Assembly (NCBI GenBank): GCA_039819165.1
Contig: JBCBSM010000001.1
Coordinates: 1,054,001-1,118,000 of the forward strand
Source of the DNA: Planctomycetota bacterium
GTDB taxonomy: Bacteria; Planctomycetota; Phycisphaerae; Phycisphaerales; UBA1924
Length of the DNA: 64,000 nt
Reading direction: 5' to 3'
The position numbers and the translations under genes are program-made. Below, piece after piece: positions 2,028-15,339 of the stretch (the first letter of the stretch is position 1; every line of letters begins with the position of its first letter). Below the pieces are notes generated by a model. It worked only from the letters and a program-made list of their open reading frames with translations, made no database searches and had not been told where the DNA came from.

Positions 2028-3743
2028 CTAGCCGGACGTGTGAACGCCGTCCGACTCGCTCGCGGCGTCCTCGGTCCGCAGCACCGAGCGGATCTCCTCG
2101 AGCAGCCGCTCGACCTGGAAGGGCTTGAACAGCACGCAGCTGAGGCCCTCCTGGGAGGCGCGGACGATGCTGTGGCTCGGGTCGTAGCCGAAGCCCGTCA
2201 TCAGGATGACCGGCACGTCGGGCAGGGCGCGGCGGGCGGCCGAGAACAGCTCGTAGCCGTTGCGGTCGGGCATCTGGATGTCGCTGATGACCAGCTGGAA
2301 GGGTCGGCCGCCGTCGGCCGACGCCTGGACCGCTTCGATCGCCTCCGCCCCGCTCTCGCACACGCACACGTCGGCACCACGGTTGCGGAGCACGTCGGCG
2401 ATGACGCGGCGGACGGCTCGCTCGTCGTCGGCCACCAGCACGCGGGCGCCCTCGATCAGCGGCTCGCGCTCCTCGGAGGCCATCGCCCGCTCGACGCCCA
2501 GCAGGGCGCGCGGCCCCTCGGCCACGCGGCGGACGCGATCGCGGATGGACTCGACATCGGTGCCGATCCGCTTCAACCGCGACGCCAGGTCGGGATCGTT
2601 GCCGACCTTCTCGCGGAGCTGCTCGACGATGCTGGCGATGTCGTCCAGTGGCTCGCGGAGTTCGCCCTGCACGCGGCCCGACACCGTGGCGTTGGTCTCG
2701 CACCGCTCGACGACGAGCAGGTCCAGCACCCGCAGCGCCAGGGCGAGGTGGCGGGCGAAGTGCTCGGCGAAGCGGCGGTCTTCCTCGTCGAAGGCGCCCG
2801 GCTTGAACGACTCGACGTCGAGCACGCCGATGACCCGGTCGTGCAGCCGCAGCGGCACCACCATCGCGCTGCGGGCACCCTGCAGGCACGGCAGGAATCG
2901 GGCGTCGCCCATCGCGTCGTTGCAGATCTCAGACACGCCCGTGGAGGCCACGAAGCCCGCGATGCCGTTGCCCTGCCGCGAGGGATACAGATCGAGCTCG
3001 GCGGCCTCGGGGCTGAGGCCCTCGGAGATCACCAGTTCCAGCTTGCCGGTCTTGTCGTTGATCAGCCGGATGGCGAAGTGGTCGAAGTTGAGCAGCTTGT
3101 GGGCCGTCTCGATGATGCGGCTCTCGAGCACGCTCAGCCGCTCCATGGCGTTCTTGGAGCGGACGAATTCCGGATCGATGGACACGAGGTCCCGGCCGGC
3201 CTGCTCGATGGCGGTCATGCGGCGGTCCAGCCGGCGGGCCTCGGACACATCGCGGATGACCGCGACCAGCCGGGAGTCGGCTACGCCTCCGCCCTCGCCC
3301 TGTGCGAGCGAGACGATCACGTCGTACCAGGCGTTCGCGTCCTCGTCGCCGACCTCGACGCACCGCGCGACGAGCTTGCCGCGCTGCTCGCGCTGGGCGA
3401 CCAGCCAGTCGATGCTGTGGCGCGCGGCCGCCCGGATGCGCTGCCCCACCGACGGGTCCAGCGTGCGGAAGAAGGCGTTGGCCCAGATGATGGTGCCGTC
3501 GGTCCGCATCAGGCACACGCCCTCATTGACGGCATCGAGCAGCGCGTAGGCCCGGTCGAGCTCGCTGAATTCCGGCGCGGCCGCCCCGGCGCTGAGCACC
3601 CGGGCGCCCGGATGCTCGGCGAGCCGCTGGGCGAGTTCGTCCGGGGTGCAGAAGACCACGTCCGCGTCGTCGCGGATCGGAAGCTCGGAAGCCGCCTCGG
3701 CCGTCGAGCCGACAATGATGATCGTGTTGGAACGCTCGACCAT
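2028..3743 (-). CDS. PAS-GAF-receiver signalling protein with a HisKA-like helix lacking histidine
   Basis: A 571-residue cytoplasmic protein. A PAS domain covers about residues 65-170 (NEGVCLMRTDGTIIWAN). A GAF domain covers about 205-350 (HFAIRLINDKTGKLEL; SAMVVPLRLHDRVIGVLD). A helical segment at about 365-430 follows, then a receiver domain (about 435-555) with the acidic pair in VADDE, the phospho-acceptor Asp near 488 in ISDIQMPD, MTGFG and the FKPF lysine. The helical segment contains GELREPLDD where a histidine kinase has HELRTPL, so the phospho-accepting histidine is a glycine, and there is no ATPase domain. It is therefore probably a phosphorylation target or sensor rather than a kinase. 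The start at 3743 precedes a short segment of unknown fold; an upstream in-frame ATG near 3860 is possible. Confidence 0.82.
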   Translation of the reverse strand: MVERSNTIIIVGSTAEAASELPIRDDADVVFCTPDELAQRLAEHPGARVLSAGAAAPEFSELDRAYALLDAVNEGVCLMRTDGTIIWANAFFRTLDPSVGQRIRAAARHSIDWLVAQREQRGKLVARCVEVGDEDANAWYDVIVSLAQGEGGGVADSRLVAVIRDVSEARRLDRRMTAIEQAGRDLVSIDPEFVRSKNAMERLSVLESRIIETAHKLLNFDHFAIRLINDKTGKLELVISEGLSPEAAELDLYPSRQGNGIAGFVASTGVSEICNDAMGDARFLPCLQGARSAMVVPLRLHDRVIGVLDVESFKPGAFDEEDRRFAEHFARHLALALRVLDLLVVERCETNATVSGRVQGELREPLDDIASIVEQLREKVGNDPDLASRLKRIGTDVESIRDRVRRVAEGPRALLGVERAMASEEREPLIEGARVLVADDERAVRRVIADVLRNRGADVCVCESGAEAIEAVQASADGGRPFQLVISDIQMPDRNGYELFSAARRALPDVPVILMTGFGYDPSHSIVRASQEGLSCVLFKPFQVERLLEEIRSVLRTEDAASESDGVHTSG

Positions 3744-3828
3744 CGCCACACCGCCTGCGGGCTGGCCGATCGCCGGATCGGGCGATCGGTTCGGCGAGTC
3801 CTTCGCCCCAGCCCCCGAATCTACGCCG

Positions 3829-3857
3829 TATATACCAATCGGCTCCCGGCCAGACAT
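3829..3857 (-). promoter_or_regulatory. Possible promoter of the PAS-GAF-receiver gene
   Basis: On the minus strand ATGTCT (3852-3857) and TATATA (3829-3834) are separated by 17 bases in an AT-rich patch of the 168-base divergent region between the receiver gene and the ABC cassette. The spacing is right for a housekeeping sigma factor but the upstream hexamer is poor. It is not possible to say whether the same patch also serves the plus-strand ABC genes. Confidence 0.35.
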
Positions 3858-3911
3858 TGTTTCATCCGATCCTAATCGGCTTCCCGGGCGAACCGGGCGC
3901 AGGCGGGTCCG

Positions 3912-4943
3912 ATGATCGAAGTCCGAAACCTGCACAAGGCGTTCGGCCGCTTCCACGCCCTCCGGGGCGTCGGCTTCGACGCGCCCGAGGGCCAGGTGAC
4001 CGGCCTGCTGGGCGCCAACGGCGCCGGCAAGAGCACCACCATCCGCGTCATCACCGGGTATACGACCCCCGACGTGGGCTGGGTCCGCGTCGGGGGAATC
4101 TGGCCGCACCGCCGCCCGCTGGCCGCCCGCCGGGCCATCGGTTACCTGCCCGAGTCGGCCCCAGCCTACCCCGAGATGTCCACGGAGGCATTCCTGGCGT
4201 ATCGGGCCTCGCTCTACGGGATTCCACGGAGAACGCGGCGGGGCGCCGTCGAGCGGGCGATCGAGAGCTGCGCATTGGGCCCCGTGCGGCGGCGGCGTGT
4301 GGGCCACCTCAGCAAGGGCTACCGCCAGCGGGCCGGGCTCGCGGCGGCCATCCTGCACGATCCGCGGGTGCTGATCCTCGACGAGCCGACCAACGGCCTC
4401 GACCCGGGCCAGATCAACGAGACGCGGTCGGTCATCCGGCGGCTGGCCGAGGGCCGCACCGTGCTGGTCAGCTCGCACATCCTCCCCGAGATCGAGCGGA
4501 GCTGCGACCGCGTGGTGATCCTGGCCGCCGGCCGGCTGTGCGCCCAGGGCAGCCTCAGCGATCTGCTCGGGGCCGCGGACGACGAGCTGGCCTGCGAGGT
4601 CGCCTTTCCGCTGGCGGGGACCGCAGAACCGGCACGGTCGGCCGTGGCGCGGACGCCGGGCGTCTTATCGGTCGCCGCGGACGAGCCCGGCCCGAAGCTG
4701 CGACGCTGGCGGGTGCGCTTCGACGCCGGCACCATCACCGAGCCCGACCTTCGGGCCGTCGTGGGCCGGACGCTCTCGACCTACCAGGCCGAGGTCCGCC
4801 TGCTCGAGCGGCAGACGCCGACGCTGGAACGCGTCTTCCTGGCGCTGACCGAGGCCGCCAGCGGCGATGAGGGCGAGAACCGCGAGAAGTGCGACCACTC
4901 CAGGGACGATCCCGGCGCCAAGGAGCCCAAGGCGTGCGCGTAG
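3912..4943 (+). CDS. ABC transporter ATP-binding protein, GldA-like
   Basis: A 343-residue ATPase subunit. Walker A is GANGAGKST (about 34-42), the signature motif is LSKGYRQRAGLA, and Walker B plus catalytic Glu is VLILDEPTNGLD; the switch histidine lies in LVSSHI. The C-terminal third (about 215-315) is the extension found in ABC-2 exporters and GldA-type proteins. It starts with RNLHKAFGRFHALRGV, typical of the family. The stop overlaps the permease gene by ten bases and a GldG-like gene follows, so this is the three-part Gld-type cassette known in Bacteroidetes and widespread in Planctomycetota. In planctomycetes its cargo is not established. The last 25 residues are rich in charged residues and may be unstructured. 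Confidence 0.92.
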   Translation: MIEVRNLHKAFGRFHALRGVGFDAPEGQVTGLLGANGAGKSTTIRVITGYTTPDVGWVRVGGIWPHRRPLAARRAIGYLPESAPAYPEMSTEAFLAYRASLYGIPRRTRRGAVERAIESCALGPVRRRRVGHLSKGYRQRAGLAAAILHDPRVLILDEPTNGLDPGQINETRSVIRRLAEGRTVLVSSHILPEIERSCDRVVILAAGRLCAQGSLSDLLGAADDELACEVAFPLAGTAEPARSAVARTPGVLSVAADEPGPKLRRWRVRFDAGTITEPDLRAVVGRTLSTYQAEVRLLERQTPTLERVFLALTEAASGDEGENREKCDHSRDDPGAKEPKACA

Positions 4944-5656
4944 CGCTGCTGCTGGCTCGGCGGGAGTTCGCCTCGCTGTTCCGCGTGCCGGTCGGCTGGC
5001 TGGTGCTCGCGCTGTACGCGGCGCTCTGGGGCGGCATGTTCGCGCAGTTCGTGCTGGTCGAGGGCGCACCCGCCACGCTGCGGCCGATCTTCGCGACCGC
5101 CGGCTGGCTAATGCTGCCCCTCGCGCCGGCGATCTCGATGCGGCTGCTCAGCGACGAGTACCGCACCGGCAGCTACGAGACGCTGGCGACCGCGCCGGCG
5201 AGCGACGCCGCCATCGCGCTGGGCAAGTTCCTCGGGGCGGCCGCCTTCCTGCTGGCGATGCTCGCCTGCACGCTGCCCACGGTGGGCGTGCTGCTGGCGA
5301 TCTCCGATCCGATGCCCGACCCGGGGCCCATCGCCGCGGGCTATCTGAGCGTCACGCTCGTGGGCGTGCTGTTCCTGTCGGTGGGGTTGACCGCGTCGAG
5401 CCTCACCAGCAGCCAGACCCTGGCGTTCCTCGGCGCGATGATCGCGCTGCTGGCCTGGCTGCTGGCGACGACCGTCGGCCGCCAGCGGGCCCCGGCCTGG
5501 CTGGCCGATGCGCTGGGCACCATCGACGTGACCGGCCGGCTCGCGGGATTCGCCAAGGGCGTGATCGACACGGGCGACGTCGCCTTCTTCCTGGTCGCCA
5601 GCGGCTGGTTCGTGCTTGCCGCGTCGATGATCCTCTCGATCCGGAGGTGGGCGTGA
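4934..5656 (+). CDS. ABC-2 type permease, GldF-like
   Basis: A 240-residue integral membrane protein with about six hydrophobic segments. It opens with LLARREFASLFRVPVGWLV, the standard amphipathic start of ABC-2 and GldF permeases, and contains SDEYRTGSYETLATAPASD, the conserved cytoplasmic loop seen between the second and third helices in this family. The GTG at 4934 was chosen because AAGGAG (4920-4925) sits eight bases upstream; a longer form from 4889 would place the start inside the ATPase gene without a ribosome-binding site. It should form the membrane channel driven by the preceding ATPase. Its stop TGA overlaps the next ATG (TGATG). Confidence 0.9.
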   Translation: MRVALLLARREFASLFRVPVGWLVLALYAALWGGMFAQFVLVEGAPATLRPIFATAGWLMLPLAPAISMRLLSDEYRTGSYETLATAPASDAAIALGKFLGAAAFLLAMLACTLPTVGVLLAISDPMPDPGPIAAGYLSVTLVGVLFLSVGLTASSLTSSQTLAFLGAMIALLAWLLATTVGRQRAPAWLADALGTIDVTGRLAGFAKGVIDTGDVAFFLVASGWFVLAASMILSIRRWA

Positions 5657-7797
5657 TGCGCTCCGCGGGCCGCTGGCGGCGGCGGATCCACATCGCCTGG
5701 CTGGCGGCGACCTTCCTGGTCGCCAACCTGGTCAGCGCCGCCTTCCTGGTGTCCATCGCCGACCGGCACCGCGTCCGCATCGATGCGACCGCGACCGGCG
5801 AGCACCGCCTCGCGCCCCTCACGCTGCGGCTGCTCGAAGCGACGTCCGAGGGCGGGGGCTACGAGCTGGTCGTCGCCGCCGATACGACACGGGTCGATCC
5901 GCGTGCCTGGCAGGCGTTGCTCGACGTAGGAGCCGAACTGGAGGCGACCGGCGCGATGGACGTCTCGCCGCTGGCCGCGAGCAATGCGCAGGCCGGGCTG
6001 CAAGAACTGGCCCAACGGCTGGCGGACCGCGACGCGGACGCCATCGCGGCGCAGGAGTCGGCGCTGCGGGCCGCGATCGAGGACGTCCGCCTCGCCGCGG
6101 GCGTGATCGAGACGCGGGTGGCCGCCGAGCTGGCCGCCATCGCCGCCGTGCTGGAGGACCTCGGCCCGGGCACGGCCGCGGCCGCCCGGGAGTACGCCGG
6201 CCGGGCCGAGTCCGCCCCGCTGCTCGCCCGCGACCTCCGCTCGGCAGCGGACGCTGCGGAGGCGGCGCTCGCAACGCCGCTGCTGGCCGGCGTCGAGACG
6301 CCCTCCCTCGACCGCGCCCGTGCCGCCCTGGCCCCCGCCGCCCGGACCGCCGGCGGCCAGCTGGCGCTGCTCTCGGGCGAAGCGGCCGGACTCGCCTCGA
6401 ACACCGACGCGCCCGAGGGTGTTCGGCCGCCGGCGGCCGCGCTCGAGCGATCGTCCGAGGACGCCGGCGAGCGGTGCGCCGCGGCCGCCGCCGCCATCGA
6501 CCGCCTGGAGCTGCTAGACGTCGTCCGTGTGCTGCGGAGCGCCGGGACGGCAACGGTGGCGATCCTCGTGGGCCCGGGCACGCCCGTCGCCATCGACACC
6601 GAGCAGCTTCTTCCGCCGCCCGGCGTGCTGAGGCCCGAGGCCGCGACCGCTCCGGCGCTGCGGCGCCGCACCGAATCGCTGATCGGCAGCGCCCTGCTCG
6701 GCGCGACCGATCAGCTCGGCCCGATCGTCGTGCTGACCCACGCCGAGTCGGCGCGGCTACTCGAGCTGGAGGGTGCCTTCGGCATCGCGGCCGCATACCT
6801 GCAGCGCCGGGGCATCGAGGTCGTCGAGTGGCCCGTCGTGCTCGAGGACGAACCGGCCAAGCTCACCCGGCTCGATCCCGCGGGCGTGCGGCCGGCGGTC
6901 TACGTCGTGCAGAACACCTACAGCGGCCGCGGGGCCAGCGGGCCGCTCGCGCAGACCGGGGCCCAGCGGGCGGCGGAACTCGGCCGCGTGGTCGACCGCT
7001 TGATCGACTCGGGCGCGCCCGTGCTGCTGAGCGTCACGCCCAGCGAAATCGCCGTGTCGGGATCCCAGGATCCGACGGTGGCCGGGCTCGCGCTATTCGG
7101 CCTGGTGGCGCGCAGCGAGGCGACCATCCTCGCGACCGACGCGGCGAGCACCTCGATCGGGTCCCCCGCCGGTTTCGTGCGGACCGACCAGTTGGTCCGC
7201 GCACAGAACGGCGAGCACGCGGTGCAGGGCGCCATCGCCGGGCTGGCGACCTACCTGCCGTGGCCGATCGAGGTCGAGCGCGCCGCCAACCCACCGGCGG
7301 GCACGGATGCCACACCGCTGCTTGCGATCAACGAGCCCGGCGGGTGGCAGGAAACGCAATGGACGGGCTACCGGCGGATCGGGCGGGAGCGCCGCGCGAT
7401 CGTCGCCGATCCGCCGACGCCCGATCCAGAGACCGAGGACGTCGAGGGTCCGTGGCCGGTCGCATGGGCGGCGTCGCGTGCGATGGACGGCGGCCGCGAC
7501 GCCCGGCTGGTGGTGGTCGGTTCGAACGACTGGTTCATCGACGAGATCGTGTCGCAGGGCGAATCGATCGACGGCCGCCAGGTCGCCGACTTCCCGGGCA
7601 ACCTGGCGCTGCTCGAGGCCGGCGTGCTGTGGCTGGCGCATCGCGACGAGTTCATCGCACGGGGCGCGAGCGTGGCGGACGTCGCGACGATTCGCGACTT
7701 GCACGGGGGCGTCGCGACGGCTATCCGCTGGGGCCTGGTGCTCGGGCTGCCGTTGCTAGTGCTCGTCGTTGGTGGCGTCTGGCAGCTCCGCCGCTGA
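5656..7797 (+). CDS. GldG-like auxiliary subunit of the ABC cassette
   Basis: A 713-residue membrane-anchored protein. One hydrophobic segment is near residues 15-35 (IAWLAATFLVANLVSAAFLV) and another is at the extreme C-terminus (GLVLGLPLLVLVVGGVWQL, then basic RR). The large part between should lie outside the membrane. RIDATATGEHRLAPLTLRLL matches the GldG opening strand, where the family has a D-x-T-x-x-K-x-Y-T-L-S-type sequence. An Ala-rich helical stretch (about 100-300) replaces part of the usual fold and probably forms a coiled coil. The topology and position after ATPase and permease genes support the GldG assignment; sequence similarity alone is weak. The 3' end overlaps the convergent gene at 7756 by 42 bases. 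Confidence 0.75.
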   Translation: MRSAGRWRRRIHIAWLAATFLVANLVSAAFLVSIADRHRVRIDATATGEHRLAPLTLRLLEATSEGGGYELVVAADTTRVDPRAWQALLDVGAELEATGAMDVSPLAASNAQAGLQELAQRLADRDADAIAAQESALRAAIEDVRLAAGVIETRVAAELAAIAAVLEDLGPGTAAAAREYAGRAESAPLLARDLRSAADAAEAALATPLLAGVETPSLDRARAALAPAARTAGGQLALLSGEAAGLASNTDAPEGVRPPAAALERSSEDAGERCAAAAAAIDRLELLDVVRVLRSAGTATVAILVGPGTPVAIDTEQLLPPPGVLRPEAATAPALRRRTESLIGSALLGATDQLGPIVVLTHAESARLLELEGAFGIAAAYLQRRGIEVVEWPVVLEDEPAKLTRLDPAGVRPAVYVVQNTYSGRGASGPLAQTGAQRAAELGRVVDRLIDSGAPVLLSVTPSEIAVSGSQDPTVAGLALFGLVARSEATILATDAASTSIGSPAGFVRTDQLVRAQNGEHAVQGAIAGLATYLPWPIEVERAANPPAGTDATPLLAINEPGGWQETQWTGYRRIGRERRAIVADPPTPDPETEDVEGPWPVAWAASRAMDGGRDARLVVVGSNDWFIDEIVSQGESIDGRQVADFPGNLALLEAGVLWLAHRDEFIARGASVADVATIRDLHGGVATAIRWGLVLGLPLLVLVVGGVWQLRR

Positions 7798-8268
7798 GCG
7801 GCCGGACTCGGCCTGGCCGAGGCGCGATCGCCCCAGTATCTCTCGCACGTCACGCGATCGGGATTCTGCGGCAGCAGGACGCTCGACAACGGCCGCGGCG
7901 CGGCGCTCGGCCGCTTCGGCCGTGGCGCGGTCGTACTCCACGCCGCACTCGGGGCACTGCTCCGCGAAGCCCGGCACACCCGTGAGGTCGTAGCCACACT
8001 TCTGGCAGCACCACGCCGCGGGCCGATGCGGGATGGCGACCACGAAGAAACCCACGAGCCCGATGAGGATGAGGTAGCCCCACAGCAAGAACTGCAGCAC
8101 GGGCAGGTACATGTCGTAGGACACCCACGCGTTCATCTGCGTGTGCAGCAGCATGAAGCCGAGGATGCCCAACTCCCCCACCGCGACGCACGCGACGCCG
8201 AGCCAGCGGCGTCGCCATCGGCAGGCGCCGTACCACACGAGCAGGGCGTAGGGCACGAAGAGCAGCAC
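7756..8268 (-). CDS. Small membrane protein with a CGYDLTG zinc ribbon
   Basis: A 170-residue protein of unknown function. Two or three hydrophobic segments occupy residues 1-80. Then CCQKCGYDLTG and CPECG supply two CxxC knuckles of a zinc ribbon, in the form common among Planctomycetota membrane proteins. An alanine- and arginine-rich tail follows. The start is GTG at 8268; the ribosome-binding site is weak, so the exact start is uncertain. It is the last gene of a minus-strand run that begins at 12271, 27 bases after the flippase-like gene. Its tail overlaps the end of the GldG-like gene on the other strand. The coding call rests on composition, the metal ribbon and context. Confidence 0.72.
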   Translation of the reverse strand: MLLFVPYALLVWYGACRWRRRWLGVACVAVGELGILGFMLLHTQMNAWVSYDMYLPVLQFLLWGYLILIGLVGFFVVAIPHRPAAWCCQKCGYDLTGVPGFAEQCPECGVEYDRATAEAAERRAAAVVERPAAAESRSRDVREILGRSRLGQAESGRSAAELPDATNDEH

Positions 8269-8295
8269 GCCAGAGAGCCTAGCAAGCGAACCCTG

Positions 8296-9330
8296 TCATA
8301 CGTTCGCGTCCGACGCACGTGCGGATCTTCCCTGGCCGCGTTCGGAGGCTCCGCCGCGGCGGTGCCGACGCAGCCGACGGATCGTGAGCGCAAGCCCCAG
8401 CAGCCCGACGGGGATCGACACGAGCACCTCGGCCGCGCGATTGAGGACGTCCGCGGTGAGGCCCTGACCGAGTTCGATGCCGCCCCCGGCGACGGCCGCC
8501 GTCGTGAGCGCGCCGCTCGCCAGCGCGCCGATCATCCACTCGCGCAGGCCCAGCCCGTTGCCCGCGATGGGCACGAGCATGGCCAGCTGGCTGGCGATCG
8601 CGAGGGCCATCGCGCCCGAGGCGTCGATGGGCACGCCGATAACGCCGAAGGCCAGCGCGTAGCGGGCCGCCCAGATGGTCATGTCCAGGCTGCGCAGTCC
8701 TGTCGCGATCGCGTATCGCGCGACCAAGGGTCGGGCACGGAACGACGACGACGCGACGAACCCGCCCAACACCACCGGCCCGATCGCCATCGCCAGCCAG
8801 GCCACCCCGGCGGGCACGCCACGGAGCAGCAGCGCAACCGCCAGCAGCACGCCCGCCGAGATCGCGGTGCTGGCGGCGCCCTCGGCCAGCGCCCGGGCCG
8901 ACTCCCGCACGCGGATGCCGTTGACCATCTTGTGGTAGGTCACGCGGCTGACCAGGCCCGGCCTCATGGGCAGGTAGTTGAGCAGCCAGGCCAGGCCGAT
9001 GAGCCCGGTCATCTCCGTCCAGCCGAGGCGGCCGAAGCGCTCGGTGAGCACCCAGAGCGACGTGGCGATGACAAGCCAGTTGAGCGCGGGCAGCGCGAAG
9101 AGGGCCACGACCTCCCAGGCGGGCCGCGCCCGCATGGCGGCGTAGGCCTCGCGGAGGCCGTCGGGATTCTGCCAGAGCGCCGCGACGATCGCGGCGACCA
9201 CGAGACCCGCGCCCAGAACGAAGCCCGCGACGCGGATCGCGGGCCGCCCGCGGAGGGCGTTGACCCGGGCCGCGGCGGCGCGCACCCGTGCGGAGCCCCG
9301 ACGCGGCCGCGGGGCGCGCAGCGGGGTCAC
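8296..9330 (-). CDS. Flippase-like integral membrane protein (lysylphosphatidylglycerol synthase TM / UPF0104 family)
   Basis: A 344-residue protein with about seven or eight hydrophobic segments. The loop WLLNYLPMRPGLVSRVTYHK and the later NGLGLREWMIG segment match the paired motifs of the UPF0104/AglD-like family, whose members are the membrane half of MprF or stand-alone proteins near glycan and lipid genes. The soluble lysyl-transferase half of MprF is absent. Family members are thought to move lipids or lipid-linked molecules across the membrane; the cargo here is unknown. The start GTG at 9330 overlaps the stop of the upstream 857-residue gene (GTGA), so the two are translationally coupled. 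The C-terminal 30 residues are basic and cytoplasmic. Confidence 0.8.
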   Translation of the reverse strand: MTPLRAPRPRRGSARVRAAAARVNALRGRPAIRVAGFVLGAGLVVAAIVAALWQNPDGLREAYAAMRARPAWEVVALFALPALNWLVIATSLWVLTERFGRLGWTEMTGLIGLAWLLNYLPMRPGLVSRVTYHKMVNGIRVRESARALAEGAASTAISAGVLLAVALLLRGVPAGVAWLAMAIGPVVLGGFVASSSFRARPLVARYAIATGLRSLDMTIWAARYALAFGVIGVPIDASGAMALAIASQLAMLVPIAGNGLGLREWMIGALASGALTTAAVAGGGIELGQGLTADVLNRAAEVLVSIPVGLLGLALTIRRLRRHRRGGASERGQGRSARASDANV

Positions 9331-11900
9331 GGCCCGGGCGTCGCGGGCTGGCCAGACGGTTGCCGAGTTGGCTGTCGATCCGCGGCCGCGGCGATGCCGC
9401 TCGCCGTGAAGCCCCGGAACGCCGCGTAGGTCGCCCGGCCGTCTCGGAGCCGGGCCCGCAGCAGGGCGGCGAGTTCGGCAACGCGAGGGTCCTCGGCGGA
9501 CGATGCGCGGTCGAATGCCTCATGCTCGGGATCGCTACCCCTGGTCAGCAACGCAGCGGCGAGCAAGGCCGGCTCCTCGCTCGCGAGCGCCGCCTGATCG
9601 AACGGCGCGAGCGCCGCGCTCATCCGCGCGTTCGGCACGGCGCCCAGGAGCGCGAGACGCGCCTCGGGCGATAGCTGGGCGAAGCGCTGCGCTGCGGCGG
9701 CGACCACGGGCGCGTAGAACTCGGCGGTCCGCCGCAGCCGCGCGGAATCCGGACCCGCGATGCTCGCCTTGATGGCGGCCGCCAGGGAGGTAAGCACGCC
9801 CTCGGCGTCCGCGATGAACCGCGTGGCGAGCCGATTGGACGGCAGCTGTGCCTCGGGCAGCGGGCGACGGACGACGAGCCCGGTCTCGGCGGTGAGGCAC
9901 ATGGGCCCCGCTCGATAGCTCTGCCCGCCGGAGGCCACGAAGCCCTGCATCGCCCGCCAGCGCACGCGTGTGGTCCGCGTGCCGCAGGCCTCCAGGAACC
10001 AGCCCGTGAGCCCGGCGCCGACGAGCACCTCGGCCTCGAGCGTCTCGCCGGGCTCGAGCCGCAGCCGATGATCGAGCGAGGCCACCTCGGGCACGGCCAG
10101 CCCACCGAGGCTGTCCAGGTCCGCGTCGATGGAGGGCGCCAGCAGCACGCGGCTGTTGAGCGGCGCGTTGGGCCCGACGGCGAGCGGCATGGGCGAGGTG
10201 TTCCGAAGCCGGATCCGCAGCCTCGTGAACGACGTCGGATGCTCCTCGCTGCGGGGCGAGGCCACCGACAGATCCATGAAGCGTTCGGGCTTCTCGGTCA
10301 TGCGATCGAGCCAGGGCGGCACCGCGGACGCGAGCGAGGACAGCGCGGCGGCGTGCTCGAACCCCGGATTGACGCCCAGGTCGAACAGCCGCTGGTTGGC
10401 CCAGGCGCCCCACGTCGTCGCGGGCACGCCGCGGGCGAAGCCCGCGAGCCGCGGCAGGGCGTCCTCGACGCGGCCGTGCTCGAGCAGCGCGTGCGTGTAG
10501 GCGATCGACGCCAGCGGCACGACGCCGATCTTGGACTCCAGCACCGCCAGCCGCGTGTCGGCCTCGGGCGTGCCGATGGCATCGAGCGCCGCCAGCAGGT
10601 GGTTTACGAGGTTGAGCTGCTCGCGCGAGGGCTCGACGGCAGCCGGATCGATCTCGGCGAGCGGGCCCTCCTCGGCCATCGCACGATCGAAGGCCTCGTT
10701 GGCCTGGCGGATGTCGGCCCGCACCAGCTCCCGCTGCGTGCCGGCGATGATCATCGCGATGCCGTTCTCGGCCCGCACGCGGGTGGCCAGCAGGGCGACC
10801 TGCCGCGCCTCGTCGCGATCGCGGACGTTCAGGAGCAGCTGCTGCAACCGCTGGCCCACGGCGCGGCGGAGGTCCTCGGACGCCCGCGAGGCCGCGGCGT
10901 CGTCGCCCTCGGCGGTCGCCATCAGCATGCGGAGCATCGAGGCATCGGGGGGCGGCACGATCTGCTCGGGGGTCTGCATGCCCTCCAGCGACTGGCCCCG
11001 CTGCTGCATCAGCTCGCGGATCGACTCCAGACGCGCCCGCTCTTGGAGCAGCGGCAGCTCCAATTCGTTGGCGAGCCCACGCGGCCCGTCGGCCAGCCAG
11101 CGGAGCCGCACGCGGTGCAGCGCCGCCGCCGCGCCGCCGGGCGTGCCCGCCGCCGTCCGCAGCCGCTGCTCGAGCTCGAAGAACCGCAGCGCCTGCGCGA
11201 AGGCGCCCCGCTGCGCCAGCTCGTCGCTCACGGTCTTGTAGACGTTGGCGTCCACGGGGTCAGCCATAAGCAGGTTGAGCAGCAGCTCGAAGCGGCCCGC
11301 GGGATCGGCGCCGCCCTGGTCGTACACGGTCAGGATGAGCGAGGCGGCCTGCTTGTTTGTCGGGTCCAGCTCGCTCGCGGTGGCGAGCCAGTCCACGAAC
11401 CGCTCGGTGTCGCCGGTTTCGCGGGCGAGCAGGGCCGCGTCGAGCGCGAGCCGGCTGCGGACGGTCGCGGGCAGCCGCCCGCCGCCCGCACCAAGCAGCC
11501 GCTCGTAGGCCGCCATGCGATCCTCGACGGTCTGCATCGCGTCGATGCCGCTGGCGATGACCCGCAGCAGCGCCACGTCGTCGTCGGGGTCCAGCCGGAC
11601 CAACTCGCGGGTGAGCGCCAGGGCGTCCCCATCGCGGCCCGCGGACCACGCCGCCTCGATCTCGGCCCGCAGCAGCGGCACGTCCGCCGGTGAGAGCGAC
11701 CGCGCAAGCCCCAGCCCGAGCTGGGCGATGCGGTAGTCCCGCTCGTCCGGCGAGGCCTGCATCCGCAGGTCCATGAGCGCCGCGCGGGCCAGGCCCTGCG
11801 GCGCATAGGCATCGGGCGGCGCGGGCTGTGGCTGCGACCACGCCGCGGCGGAGAGCAGCAGGACGGCGAAGATGCCCGCGAGCGGGCGGAGCGCCCTCAC
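9327..11900 (-). CDS. Large exported alpha-helical repeat protein, unknown function
   Basis: An 857-residue protein starting with an N-terminal signal peptide (MRALRPLAGIFAVLLLSAAAWSQ, using GTG as Met). The mature part to about residue 480 consists of repeated helical pairs such as ALALTRELVRLDPDDDVALLR and QALRFFELEQRL, which look like degenerate TPR repeats. The middle (about 550-700) is beta-rich with DLSVASPRSEEHPTS and RLEPGETLEAEVLVGAGL. The C-terminal part is helical again and ends in a Q/P/T-rich tail. It should act outside the cytoplasm as a scaffold. The GTG start overlaps the previous stop (GTGA) and its stop overlaps the flippase-like start, so it sits in the middle of a coupled operon. 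No enzyme motif was recognised. Confidence 0.82.
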   Translation of the reverse strand: MRALRPLAGIFAVLLLSAAAWSQPQPAPPDAYAPQGLARAALMDLRMQASPDERDYRIAQLGLGLARSLSPADVPLLRAEIEAAWSAGRDGDALALTRELVRLDPDDDVALLRVIASGIDAMQTVEDRMAAYERLLGAGGGRLPATVRSRLALDAALLARETGDTERFVDWLATASELDPTNKQAASLILTVYDQGGADPAGRFELLLNLLMADPVDANVYKTVSDELAQRGAFAQALRFFELEQRLRTAAGTPGGAAAALHRVRLRWLADGPRGLANELELPLLQERARLESIRELMQQRGQSLEGMQTPEQIVPPPDASMLRMLMATAEGDDAAASRASEDLRRAVGQRLQQLLLNVRDRDEARQVALLATRVRAENGIAMIIAGTQRELVRADIRQANEAFDRAMAEEGPLAEIDPAAVEPSREQLNLVNHLLAALDAIGTPEADTRLAVLESKIGVVPLASIAYTHALLEHGRVEDALPRLAGFARGVPATTWGAWANQRLFDLGVNPGFEHAAALSSLASAVPPWLDRMTEKPERFMDLSVASPRSEEHPTSFTRLRIRLRNTSPMPLAVGPNAPLNSRVLLAPSIDADLDSLGGLAVPEVASLDHRLRLEPGETLEAEVLVGAGLTGWFLEACGTRTTRVRWRAMQGFVASGGQSYRAGPMCLTAETGLVVRRPLPEAQLPSNRLATRFIADAEGVLTSLAAAIKASIAGPDSARLRRTAEFYAPVVAAAAQRFAQLSPEARLALLGAVPNARMSAALAPFDQAALASEEPALLAAALLTRGSDPEHEAFDRASSAEDPRVAELAALLRARLRDGRATYAAFRGFTASGIAAAADRQPTRQPSGQPATPGP

Positions 11901-12271
11901 GGGCCGGCTCCGGACCACACCGCCCACGCCGTCGCGACAAGCCCAGCACAAATCAGCACCACGATCGCCACCTCGATGATCCAGCCCACGTGCCGGCCGG
12001 CCTTGGGAAACAGCCGATCCGCCACGAGGAACATGAAGACGAACACGCCCATGGCGATCGCCGTCACGCCGCCCAGGAGGGCCGCCGAGGAGAACATCGG
12101 CCAGGTCTGCCGGGCGCTGAACGCCAACCAGAGCCCGGCCACCACGAGCGAGGCCGACCAGACCGAGGCGACGCCGACGAGCACCCCCAGGGTCAGCCGC
12201 CGGAGCGTCCGGGGCGAGGGGAGGCGGCCGGCGAGGGCCGGGGGCCGCGGCGTCGAGTCCTGGTCGGGCAT
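11897..12271 (-). CDS. Small three-helix membrane protein, unknown function
   Basis: A 124-residue protein with a proline-rich hydrophilic N-terminus (about 35 residues) and three hydrophobic segments (LTLGVLVGVASVWSASLVV; FSSAALLGGVTAIAMGVFV; WIIEVAIVVLICAGLVATAW). The ATG at 12271 was preferred over one 45 bases upstream because a purine-rich CAGGGGG lies just before it. It is the first gene of the operon that continues with the 857-residue exported protein (GTGA overlap), and follows rho with a 66-base gap. It could anchor or assist the large exported protein. No family was recognised. Confidence 0.7.
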   Translation of the reverse strand: MPDQDSTPRPPALAGRLPSPRTLRRLTLGVLVGVASVWSASLVVAGLWLAFSARQTWPMFSSAALLGGVTAIAMGVFVFMFLVADRLFPKAGRHVGWIIEVAIVVLICAGLVATAWAVWSGAGP

Positions 12272-12337
12272 GCATGCCCCCTGCAACGCTCGGGTCCGGG
12301 GCCCGGTTCGCCGCAATCCCCCGCACCGCGGCGGGCG

Positions 12338-13882
12338 TCAGCCGAGCCGCATCGTCATCAGGAACTCGGCGTTGGTCTTCGCCTTGCCGAGCCGGCCCTG
12401 CAGCAGCTCCATGGCCTCTACCACGTTCATATCGGCCAGGACCTTGCGGAGCTTGTAGATCAGCTCCAGCTCCTTGGGGTCCAGCAGCAGTTCCTCGCGG
12501 CGGGTGCCGCTGGCGGTGACGTCGATGGCGGGCCAGACCCGCTTCTCGACCAGGCGCCGATCCAGGTGCAGTTCGCTGTTGCCCGTGCCCTTGAACTCCT
12601 CGAAGATGACCTCGTCCATCTTCGAGCCCGTGTCGACCAGGGCCGTCCCGATGATCGTCAGGCTGCCGCCGTCCTCGATGGCGCGAGCGGCGCCGAAGAA
12701 CTTCTTGGGCCGCTGCAGCGCGTTGGCGTCGATGCCGCCCGTCATGATCTTGCCCGAGTGGGGCTGCTCGGCGTTGTACGCCCTGGCCATGCGGGTGATC
12801 GAGTCCAGCAGGATCACCACGTGGTCGCCGAACTCGACCATCCGCTTGGCCTTCTCGATGACCATGTCGCACACCTGGACGTGCCGCGTCGAGGGCTCGT
12901 CGAAGGTGCTGGCGACGACCTCGACCTGATCGGCCGTGTTGCGGCGGAAGTCGGTGACCTCCTCGGGCCGCTCGTCGACGAGCAGCACGATGATCTGCAC
13001 CTCGGGGTGGTTCTTGGTGATCGACTGGGTGATCTTCTGCATCAGCACCGTCTTGCCGGTGCGGGGCGGCGCGACGATCAGCGCCCGCTGGCCCTTGCCG
13101 ATCGGCGCAACGAGATCGATCACCCGCGTCTCAATGCTGCTGGGGTCGGCCTCGAGGATGAACCGCTCCTCGGGGTGCAGCGGCGTCAGGTCCTCGAAGG
13201 GCTTGGTGCGGTGCGCCTGCTGGGGCTCGCGGCCGTTGACCTCGTCCACGCGGAGCAGCGCGAAGTACCGCTCGCTCTCGCGGGGCGGGCGGATCAACCC
13301 GCGGACCACCATGCCCTTGCGCAGGCCGAATCGGCGAATCTGGCTGGGGCTCACGTAGATGTCGTCGGGGCCGGGCAGGTAGCTCTGCTCGGCGCTGCGG
13401 AGGAAGCCGAAACCGTCGGACATGATCTCCAGGGTGCCGTCGCCGACGAGCAGACCCTGGCTGGCGGCGCGCACCTTCAGCAGCTTGAAGATCAGGTCCT
13501 GCTTGCTGACGCCCTCGACATCCTCGAGGCCGTCCTTCTCGGCAAGCTCCTGCAGTTCGTCGAGGGGCATCCGCTGCAGGTCCGAGATGCTGAGCGCCTG
13601 CTTGAGCACCTCGGGGTCGGCGTTGGCCGCGACCTTCTCGATCTCGGCGGCTTCCCGCTCCAGCTCGTCGTCGGTTGGCAGGCCGTGGTCGACCGGCGAG
13701 CCCTTGCGCTTCCGCCGCTTGCGGCGAGGCCCCCCGTCGCTGTCGTTGCGGCGGTTGCGCGGCCCGCGGCGGCGTTCGCCGTCCTCGGTGCCGTTGGCGC
13801 TGCCGCCCTCGGCCCGCGACGCGGTGCTCGTGGGCTTCTCTTCCCGGGCGTCGCCCGACTCGGACGCGGAACTCTTGGCCAT
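12338..13882 (-). CDS. rho: Transcription termination factor Rho
   Basis: A 514-residue hexameric RNA-dependent ATPase that ends transcription. An N-terminal extension of about 95 residues is rich in Arg, Lys, Asp and Ser (for example [12 protein letters not shown]) and is absent from the 419-residue E. coli protein. The SAP-like helical region (about 95-140) and the cold-shock RNA-binding domain ([12 protein letters not shown], about 151-162) follow. Walker A is APPRTGKT (271-278); [10 protein letters not shown] and the Q- and R-loop regions (GTGNSELHL) are intact. The start at 13882 has GAGGAA just upstream. Basic extensions of this kind occur in other high-GC phyla and add RNA affinity. 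A GTGGCT/AGCCAC stem (13944-13965) lies 62 bases upstream in the leader and may be regulatory, since rho is often autoregulated. Confidence 0.97.
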
Positions 13883-14153
13883 CGCTTCCTCGCTGGTCAG
13901 CCAAAGGGGGGCGGAGGGGCCGCGGACGCGGCGCGTCGCCGGTGTGGCTGGAACGACGGAGCCACCCCTCCTCGGTCTCTCGCCTTGCTCGGGTTGCCGC
14001 CGATCGGATTGCGACCGAACGAATGTGCACCGGGCCGGGGCCGTGCGACGAACTCGACTGGGTGAGAGAAGGGACGCCACCGGAGTTCGGTGGTCGGCAA
14101 AGCCTACGCCCGCGGCCGGCCGCCAGCAACCCGCCTCGCCGGGACGGCCCGTG

Positions 14154-14792
14154 CTAGCCCTGGGCCGCGAGTCCGATGCCGTGCAGGGCCCGCAGGACGG
14201 CGTCGCGAAGCCCAGCCAGATCACCCGTGTTCGGCACGACCGCGGTGCTGCGACGCCGCTTCTCGTCCAGGGGCATCTGGGCCGCCTCGCGGCGATCGAG
14301 CTCGGCCTCGTCCCACCCCCGCCGCCGCACGCGGGCGAGCCGTTCGGCCCGCGGCGTCTCGACGAACAGCACCGCGTCGCACTCGGCATCGACGCCGGCC
14401 TCGAATAGCAGCGGCGCATCGACGACCACGCCGCGGACGCCCGACTCGGCGGCCCGTCGCAGGAGGTCGGCCCGCTCGGCGTGCAGCATCGGATGCAGGA
14501 TGGCCTCGAGCGCCCGCCGCGCCGCATCGTCGCCGAAGACGCGCGCGGCGATGGCCCGCCGATCGAGCCGCCCGTCGCGCACAACGCCATCGCCCAGCGC
14601 CGCCACTACGCGGGCCCGCACGTCCGGCCGCGCCAGCAGCGTCCGCACGCCGGCGTCCGAATCACTCACCCAGAATCCGAGTTCGGCGAGGATGCTCGCC
14701 ACGGCGCTCTTGCCGCTGCCGATGCCGCCGGCCAGGCCGAGGACCATCGGCCGCTGCGGGGCGGTCGCACCCGACGGGTCAGCCGACGCCAT
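14154..14792 (-). CDS. coaE: Dephospho-CoA kinase
   Basis: A 212-residue P-loop kinase that adds the 3'-phosphate to dephospho-CoA, the last step of coenzyme A synthesis. The P-loop is [11 protein letters not shown] near the N-terminus, followed by VSDSDAGVR (the usual DAD/DxD region, here D-S-D), ILHPMLHAE and [11 protein letters not shown], all diagnostic of the family. The ATG at 14792 overlaps the end of hpt by 14 bases; an inner ATG at 14747 (MVLGLAGG) begins directly at the P-loop strand and is a serious alternative. It is in the same minus-strand run as hpt and ppa; a second CoA-pathway gene, coaX, is at 22617. Confidence 0.93.
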
Positions 14793-15339
14793 CAACGACC
14801 TCGGGCTTGAGGGTGGCAATGTCGGGCAGGTTGCGGTAATAGCCGTCGAAGTCCAGCCCGCAGCCCACGACGAACTCGTCGGGGATGTCGAAGCCCACGT
14901 AGTCGGGCGTCGCCTCGACGGCGCGTTCGACCCGCTTGCTGAGAAGCACGCACGTCCGCAGTTCGGCCGGCCCGCGGGCCCGCAGCAGCTCGCCCACGCG
15001 GGCAAGCGTGCGGCCGCTGTCGTAGATGTCATCGACGACGAGAACGAACGCGCCCGAGAGATCCTCCGGACCCTCGCCCCGCAGCGTGACGCCGGCGGAG
15101 CTGGTCGAGCGCCCCGGGTAGCTGCTGGCCTCGACCAACTCGATGGAGAGCCGCAGCGGCAGCCGCCGGATCAGGTCGGCCGTGAACACCATCGCGCCGG
15201 TCATGATGGGCACCACGACGAGGCGGTCGGCGCGGGCCGATGCCGCCTCGATGTCGCGGGCGATCCGGTCGCCCAGCTCGCCCACGCGGCCGGCGATGCG
15301 GTCGCGATCGATCAGGATGCGGTCCAGGTCGCGGTGCAT
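14779..15339 (-). CDS. hpt: Hypoxanthine phosphoribosyltransferase
   Basis: A 186-residue enzyme of purine salvage that transfers phosphoribose from PRPP to hypoxanthine or guanine. The PRPP-binding motif is VLVVDDIYDSGRTL, with the acidic pair in place. VVPIMTGAMVFTADLIRR matches the N-terminal loop of bacterial HPRTs and VGFDIPDEFVVGCGLDFD is the base-binding hood with its Phe/Ile/Asp pattern. The final LDFDGYYRNLPDI matches the end of the family. The ATG at 15339 lies 41 bases after ppa, in the same direction, and its 3' end overlaps coaE. Confidence 0.94.
   Translation of the reverse strand: MHRDLDRILIDRDRIAGRVGELGDRIARDIEAASARADRLVVVPIMTGAMVFTADLIRRLPLRLSIELVEASSYPGRSTSSAGVTLRGEGPEDLSGAFVLVVDDIYDSGRTLARVGELLRARGPAELRTCVLLSKRVERAVEATPDYVGFDIPDEFVVGCGLDFDGYYRNLPDIATLKPEVVDGVG

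Follow-up and report, generated by a model that had tools for sequence, protein, structure and literature searches.

The MprF protein of Pseudomonas aeruginosa (PaMprF) has been put forward as the first bacterial protein to be characterised as a dedicated lipid scramblase, and the same report describes it as a promiscuous scramblase in vitro (PMC11980842, 2025). Stand-alone proteins of the same superfamily (UPF0104 / COG0392) include YbhN of Escherichia coli and GpgF of P. aeruginosa, which are encoded close to genes for lipid or glycolipid synthesis (PMC11980842, PMC12713373), and for GpgF transport itself is given as unproven (PMC12713373). In this study, we analysed a stretch of 64,000 nucleotides (the window; contig JBCBSM010000001.1, positions 1,054,001 to 1,118,000) from the 3.14 Mb genome of a planctomycete of the order Phycisphaerales. 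Here a protein of this superfamily, P3, is encoded behind the genes of a small membrane protein, P1, and a large exported repeat protein, P2, and is followed by a further membrane protein, P4. We found that P1, P2 and P3 are linked across many relatives, and the predicted model of P3 indicates that it is distantly related to the MprF lipid-translocase domain.

The open reading frames (ORFs) placed all four genes on the minus strand between 12271 and 7756, as the original prediction, made from this DNA alone, had described. P1 (124 aa, 11897-12271) has three hydrophobic stretches, and its stop shares a GTGA overlap (11897-11900) with the start of P2 (857 aa, 9327-11900). A second GTGA (9327-9330) joins the stop of P2 to the start of P3 (344 aa, 8296-9330), and 27 bases separate P3 from P4 (170 aa, 7756-8268); both overlaps and the gap had been described correctly. 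A custom codon-bias gene caller recovered all four genes with no plus-strand gene between them, and differed from the overlap starts in placing the start of P2 27 bases upstream and that of P3 45 bases downstream. No promoter-like site was detected by a promoter scan of positions 7600-14900, where terminator-like sites numbered 2 against 1.1 expected.

P3 and the MprF lipid-translocase fold

The family of P3 was assessed through its relatives. In a paired P3 set (the window protein and 15 relatives), 10 of 16 members matched PF03706 (LPG_synthase_TM) at E <=0.1, with a best value of 7.8e-10, while an unpaired UPF0104 set matched it in 14 of 15 members at E 0.1. The paired profile matched the unpaired UPF0104 profile at E 3.6e-47. 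These results indicate homology of P3 to the UPF0104 / LPG_synthase_TM family by way of its relatives.

We then compared the predicted structure of P3 (predicted local distance difference test score, pLDDT, 89.2) with known structures. MprF chains took the top six places, at Z 15.7-18.0, and the next entry stood at Z 7.4. The alignments covered 261-272 residues within MprF 24-350, so that the predicted fold of MprF transmembrane domain 1, the flippase domain known from P. aeruginosa and Rhizobium, spans nearly all of P3; the best match was 9goe (Z 18.0, root-mean-square deviation 5.0, 261 residues). Foldseek also ranked MprF at positions 1-4, at E values of only 0.003-0.03. In the model, two pairs of short helices (H104-117/H124-137 and H237-251/H262-272) fit the two re-entrant hairpins of this domain. 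Glu264 (codon 8539-8541, minus strand) and Arg298 (codon 8437-8439, minus strand) were invariant in 71 of 71 P3 sequences, and they aligned with a Glu and an Arg that five MprF-like proteins of other planctomycetes carry, in a weak profile alignment (E 0.0014, probability 17). They would be the counterparts of PaMprF E295 and R319, described as a conserved salt bridge (PMC11980842), in a comparison that runs through the planctomycete MprF-like proteins and not through the PaMprF sequence. The predicted fold and the conserved residues thus back the lipid-moving role that had been proposed for P3.

Several results weaken this assignment. P3 alone gave no match to PF03706 at E 1 and is therefore not claimed as a formal Pfam member, although the flippase-like label holds for its family and fold. 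A PF03706 search of its own genome returned only a paralogue, and P3-family profiles and alignments found no MprF among the PDB sequences. Mutation of the PaMprF salt bridge is, moreover, reported to have left transport in place (PMC11980842). P3 also differs from MprF in lacking a lysylphosphatidylglycerol (LPG) synthase domain, and its genetic partner is an exported protein with tetratricopeptide repeats (TPRs). That P3 is MprF proper was rejected, because its ORF stops at 344 aa and the synthase domain PF09924 was not found in its genome; among 119 sampled genomes of the phylum, 12 had this domain.

A different cargo was also considered, in which P3 translocates a lipid-linked sugar for glycan or glycoprotein synthesis and P2 binds the glycosylation machinery. 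UPF0104 genes elsewhere in these genomes come after genes for putative GT2-like glycosyltransferases (L047, L052, L058, L059, L060) or GT-C-like enzymes (L061, L062, L063; the L061 protein had no Pfam match). The second UPF0104 gene of the window's own genome (L063), which passes PF03706, follows a large membrane protein that we take to be a GT-C enzyme. Makarova et al. propose such a role for UPF0104 proteins near glycosyltransferases (PMC5898192). However, we recognised no glycosyltransferase among the genes of the P1-P2-P3 block in the window. We also built a tree by a quick method from 58 rows, comprising 31 of the 71 aligned P3 rows (the window and 30 random ones), 11 fetched paired proteins and 16 unpaired ones. 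A branch with 99% support in the Shimodaira-Hasegawa-like approximate likelihood ratio test (SH-aLRT) split the 42 paired from the 16 unpaired proteins, and the glycosyltransferase-linked proteins fell on the opposite side of it from P3. We regard a lipid-linked sugar served in this way as unlikely.

Linkage of P1, P2 and P3 among relatives

To follow the locus beyond one genome, we used 80 named loci found through P2, the majority of them labelled Phycisphaerales or Phycisphaerae. They were the best 80 of 93 confirmed loci, found with two peptide patterns from an alignment of close P2 proteins, and therefore over-represent close P2 genes. Counts were restricted to loci with room on the relevant side. 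The profiles used to count P1 and P4 were built from matches in these same loci and in fetched relatives, so that misses may be detection failures.

P2 was preceded by P1 in 68 of 73 named loci and followed by P3 in 73 of 77, and the three genes were together in all four sampled congeners. Adjacency of P2 and P3 was also assessed in sampled genomes of the order. In the codes used here, f1 is the family of the window, f2-f5 are further families of its order, and f10 belongs to the same class. P2 and P3 were adjacent in 16 of 34 genomes of the order-wide sample, including 8 of 11 in f1 and 8 of 10 in f4. The f4 pairs stood in a neighbourhood different from that of the window, beside genes that are presumably pyrE-like, GH57-like and peptide-transporter-like; one pair was in reversed order (L038) and one convergent (L045), and P1 was not detected in these f4 loci. 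Synteny singles out P1-P2-P3, not all four genes, and P1-P2 is the tighter pair.

Overlap at the gene junctions was also more frequent than expected by chance. Among 73 P2-P3 junctions, 59 had a P2 stop able to overlap a start codon, and in 48 of these the overlap was in the frame of P3, compared with about 20 expected for random frames; this count does not depend on the choice of P3 start. Four-base overlaps occurred in 46 of 73 loci (L129, with a split P2, was left out of the gap count), a figure in which short gaps are favoured because the P3 start was taken as the one nearest the P2 stop. At 72 P1-P2 junctions, the P1 stop overlapped a start in the frame of P2 in 40 of 50 possible cases.

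Much of the window block, from the hpt-like to the kinase/response-regulator-like gene, recurred in the 80 named loci, and rho was upstream in 53 of 70. This would be expected if the linkage reflected only a gene order inherited next to the housekeeping genes hpt-coaE-rho, with no shared function. The mirror-tree analysis agrees with such an explanation in part: across 41 loci the partial correlation for P2-P3 was 0.29, which none of 500 permutations reached, but that for P2-hpt was 0.39, and the signal is therefore not specific to P2-P3. On the other hand, P1 remained with P2 in 15 of 17 named loci lacking rho nearby, and the P2-P3 pair was kept after rearrangement in f4 and in L093, L116 and L142. 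We consider mere inherited order quite improbable.

The linkage of P3 has exceptions, and together with the P2-hpt value they speak against a joint function of the three genes. P3 was missing despite room from L121, L123, L130 (where only 678 bases were left) and L134. In the f1 genomes G090, G096 and G113, P1-P2 was present and P3 was not adjacent, and the f4 genomes G137 and G182 had P2 without P3 at that site. In f2, f3 and f5, with 13 genomes in all, the relatives of P2 and P3 were apart in 12, and G131, in the same set, gave no P3 match. P1 was kept beside P2 in all four P3-less named loci and in L155-L157. P3 is thus not essential to P2, and P1-P2 may alone be the functional unit, a general periplasmic scaffold, with P3 a passenger that moves lipid for something else. 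The P1-P2 pairs without P3 and the unlinked relatives in f2, f3 and f5 are in line with that explanation. It accounts poorly for f4, which keeps P2 and P3 adjacent at another site where P1 is undetected and where their ends overlap in L042, L043 and L046, and for the frequency of the four-base P2-P3 overlap. We find it doubtful, and prefer a reading in which P1-P2 is the core and P3 a common partner, given the species that keep P1-P2 without P3.

The original prediction of a four-gene coupled operon therefore held in part. The genes were not scattered in close relatives, as P4 accompanied P1-P2-P3 in all four congeners, and P1-P2-P3 is linked far beyond one genome; P4 proved looser. One record with the whole block, L091, bears a cyanobacterial name in its title (Leptolyngbya sp. 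PLA1); it groups with planctomycetes, and the label is probably wrong.

The exported protein P2, P4 and the neighbouring genes

The AlphaFold2 model of P2 had a mean pLDDT of 93.1, with helices up to roughly residue 536, then a beta domain (residues 541-678) and further helices (682-841). The first part is a predicted TPR-type helical solenoid (residues 29-536; 10293-11816, minus strand). The beta domain (9867-10280, minus strand) may be called immunoglobulin-like from strand order only, and the C-terminal helical region (9378-9857, minus strand) is HEAT-like in appearance. P2 alone matched no Pfam family at E 1; TPR_16 was matched by 5 of 15 members of the P2 set at E 0.1, and TPR structures headed the PDB lists of both sequence profile and fold searches, so that the repeat type is assigned through relatives and PDB lists. 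The fold search gave generic TPR matches only and barely probed the beta domain and the C-terminus. Among these, NlpI, a periplasmic TPR adaptor and lipoprotein, shares the TPR solenoid and scored Z 10.2-10.7, no better than other TPR proteins; P2 is far larger, has the added beta domain and C-terminal helices, and has no lipobox-like match in the window protein.

The start of P2 is signal-peptide-like, with a single hydrophobic N-terminal stretch, and a hydrophobic N-terminus was found in 70 of 75 P2 relatives. Along with the predicted TPR fold, this agrees with the exported repeat protein that had been proposed. Against free soluble export in every relative, 14 of 75 matched a lipobox-like pattern within their first 60 residues and 10 of 75 had a later hydrophobic stretch, and such export is thus not certain for all of them. 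P2 relatives were detected at E 0.001 in 175 of 198 sampled genomes of the class, although many of the weak matches extend over just a part of the profile and could come from other TPR proteins.

A further observation against a joint function of P1-P2-P3 came from f10, where a DUF502-like gene was beside P2 in 3 of 4 loci read (assigned by Pfam in L148 and by likeness in L149 and L150). This membrane protein gene (L148:5497-6294, L149:5864-6655, L150:5396-6148) lies 3-77 bases from P2 and is a possible alternative partner. P2 is preceded in L150 and L160 by two membrane-anchored proteins of TPR-like appearance. In L123, L155 and L157, which have P2 without P3, acyl-carrier-protein-like and FabA/FabZ-like genes were found nearby, the FabA domain of L155 by Pfam.

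P4 has two hydrophobic stretches above the cut used, followed by CQKC and CPEC, in agreement with the predicted CGYDLTG membrane protein with a zinc ribbon. The CGYDL codon pattern occurred 7 times in the genome, counted regardless of reading frame, and the ribbon is therefore probably a common domain. P4 followed P3 without a DUF444 gene in all four sampled congeners. Outside the genus its membership of the tight unit was not upheld: among 69 named loci with 3.3 kb downstream, P4 was found in 37, and it is thus a looser neighbour, mostly behind a DUF444 gene (both genes in 28 loci, P4 only in 9, DUF444 only in 8, neither in 24). The DUF444 gene was downstream of P3 in 36 of the 69 (for example L035:10267-11385), and a search of the whole window gave no DUF444 relative (best E 4.4). 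The ancestral order may plausibly have been P1-P2-P3-DUF444-P4.

On the minus strand, the window reads hpt-like, coaE-like, rho, P1, P2, P3 and P4, where all names of neighbours except rho are our assumption. The coaE-like and phosphoribosyltransferase (hpt-like) genes (14154-15339, minus strand) are frequent upstream neighbours, as is rho (12338-13882, minus strand), which was identified by Pfam and gene calls; the window rho has a long charged N-terminal extension, rich in arginine and lysine, ahead of its Rho_N domain. Facing P4 are what we take to be a convergent GldG-like gene, an ABC permease and an ABC ATPase (together 3912-7797, plus strand), frequent downstream neighbours, and then a kinase/response-regulator-like gene. 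This GldG-like/ABC transporter and kinase-like group (2028-7797) often adjoins P1-P2-P3 in relatives. By the codon-bias caller, P4 and the GldG-like gene overlap by 42 bases.

A proposed role in the cell envelope

Our favoured reading, which we judge evenly balanced between right and wrong, is a joint role of P1, P2 and P3 in the cell envelope, with P3 moving lipid across the inner membrane and P1-P2 forming a scaffold on its outer face. P3 would be an inner-membrane translocase of the MprF domain kind, as its fold and Glu-Arg pair suggest. P2, once exported, may use its solenoid, beta domain and C-terminal helices to bind other proteins, as a scaffold at the outer face of the inner membrane. 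The likely partner of P2 in the membrane, to judge from linkage, is P1, the small membrane protein that is made immediately before it, and the gene overlaps would favour coupled translation and assembly in fixed amounts. The likely job is outward movement of bulk phospholipid or of a lipid-linked sugar, which would be handed to, or organised with, an envelope-building step.

An envelope function of P1-P2-P3 is plausible. The gene neighbourhoods of relatives hint at a role in envelope lipid: of the 5 f3 loci read, 3 had P2 downstream of LptF/LptG (L153, L154 and L158; not L147 or L151), and both f2 loci read (L049, L053) had a P3 relative close to LptF/LptG. Both settings lead to lipopolysaccharide transport, and in L153, L154 and L158 trpA-like genes were also upstream of P2. 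The window's own genome encodes LpxC and LptF/LptG, far from P1-P2-P3. A more specific proposal, that P1-P2-P3 is a dedicated bacterial scramblase complex in which the exported alpha-solenoid holds an MprF-type scramblase and receives or steers lipid across the periplasm, would follow the same logic as the pairs of scramblase and lipid-transfer protein in eukaryotes, and we see it as a long shot.

Our searches of the open-licence literature found no paper describing the P1-P2-P3 gene set. Its host group, the Phycisphaerales, is little studied in its cell biology, and little is known of how bacteria rebalance lipids across the two leaflets of their inner membrane. A stand-alone MprF relative that is tied genetically to an exported scaffold would offer a handle on the regulation of such a protein, or on its connection to the envelope.

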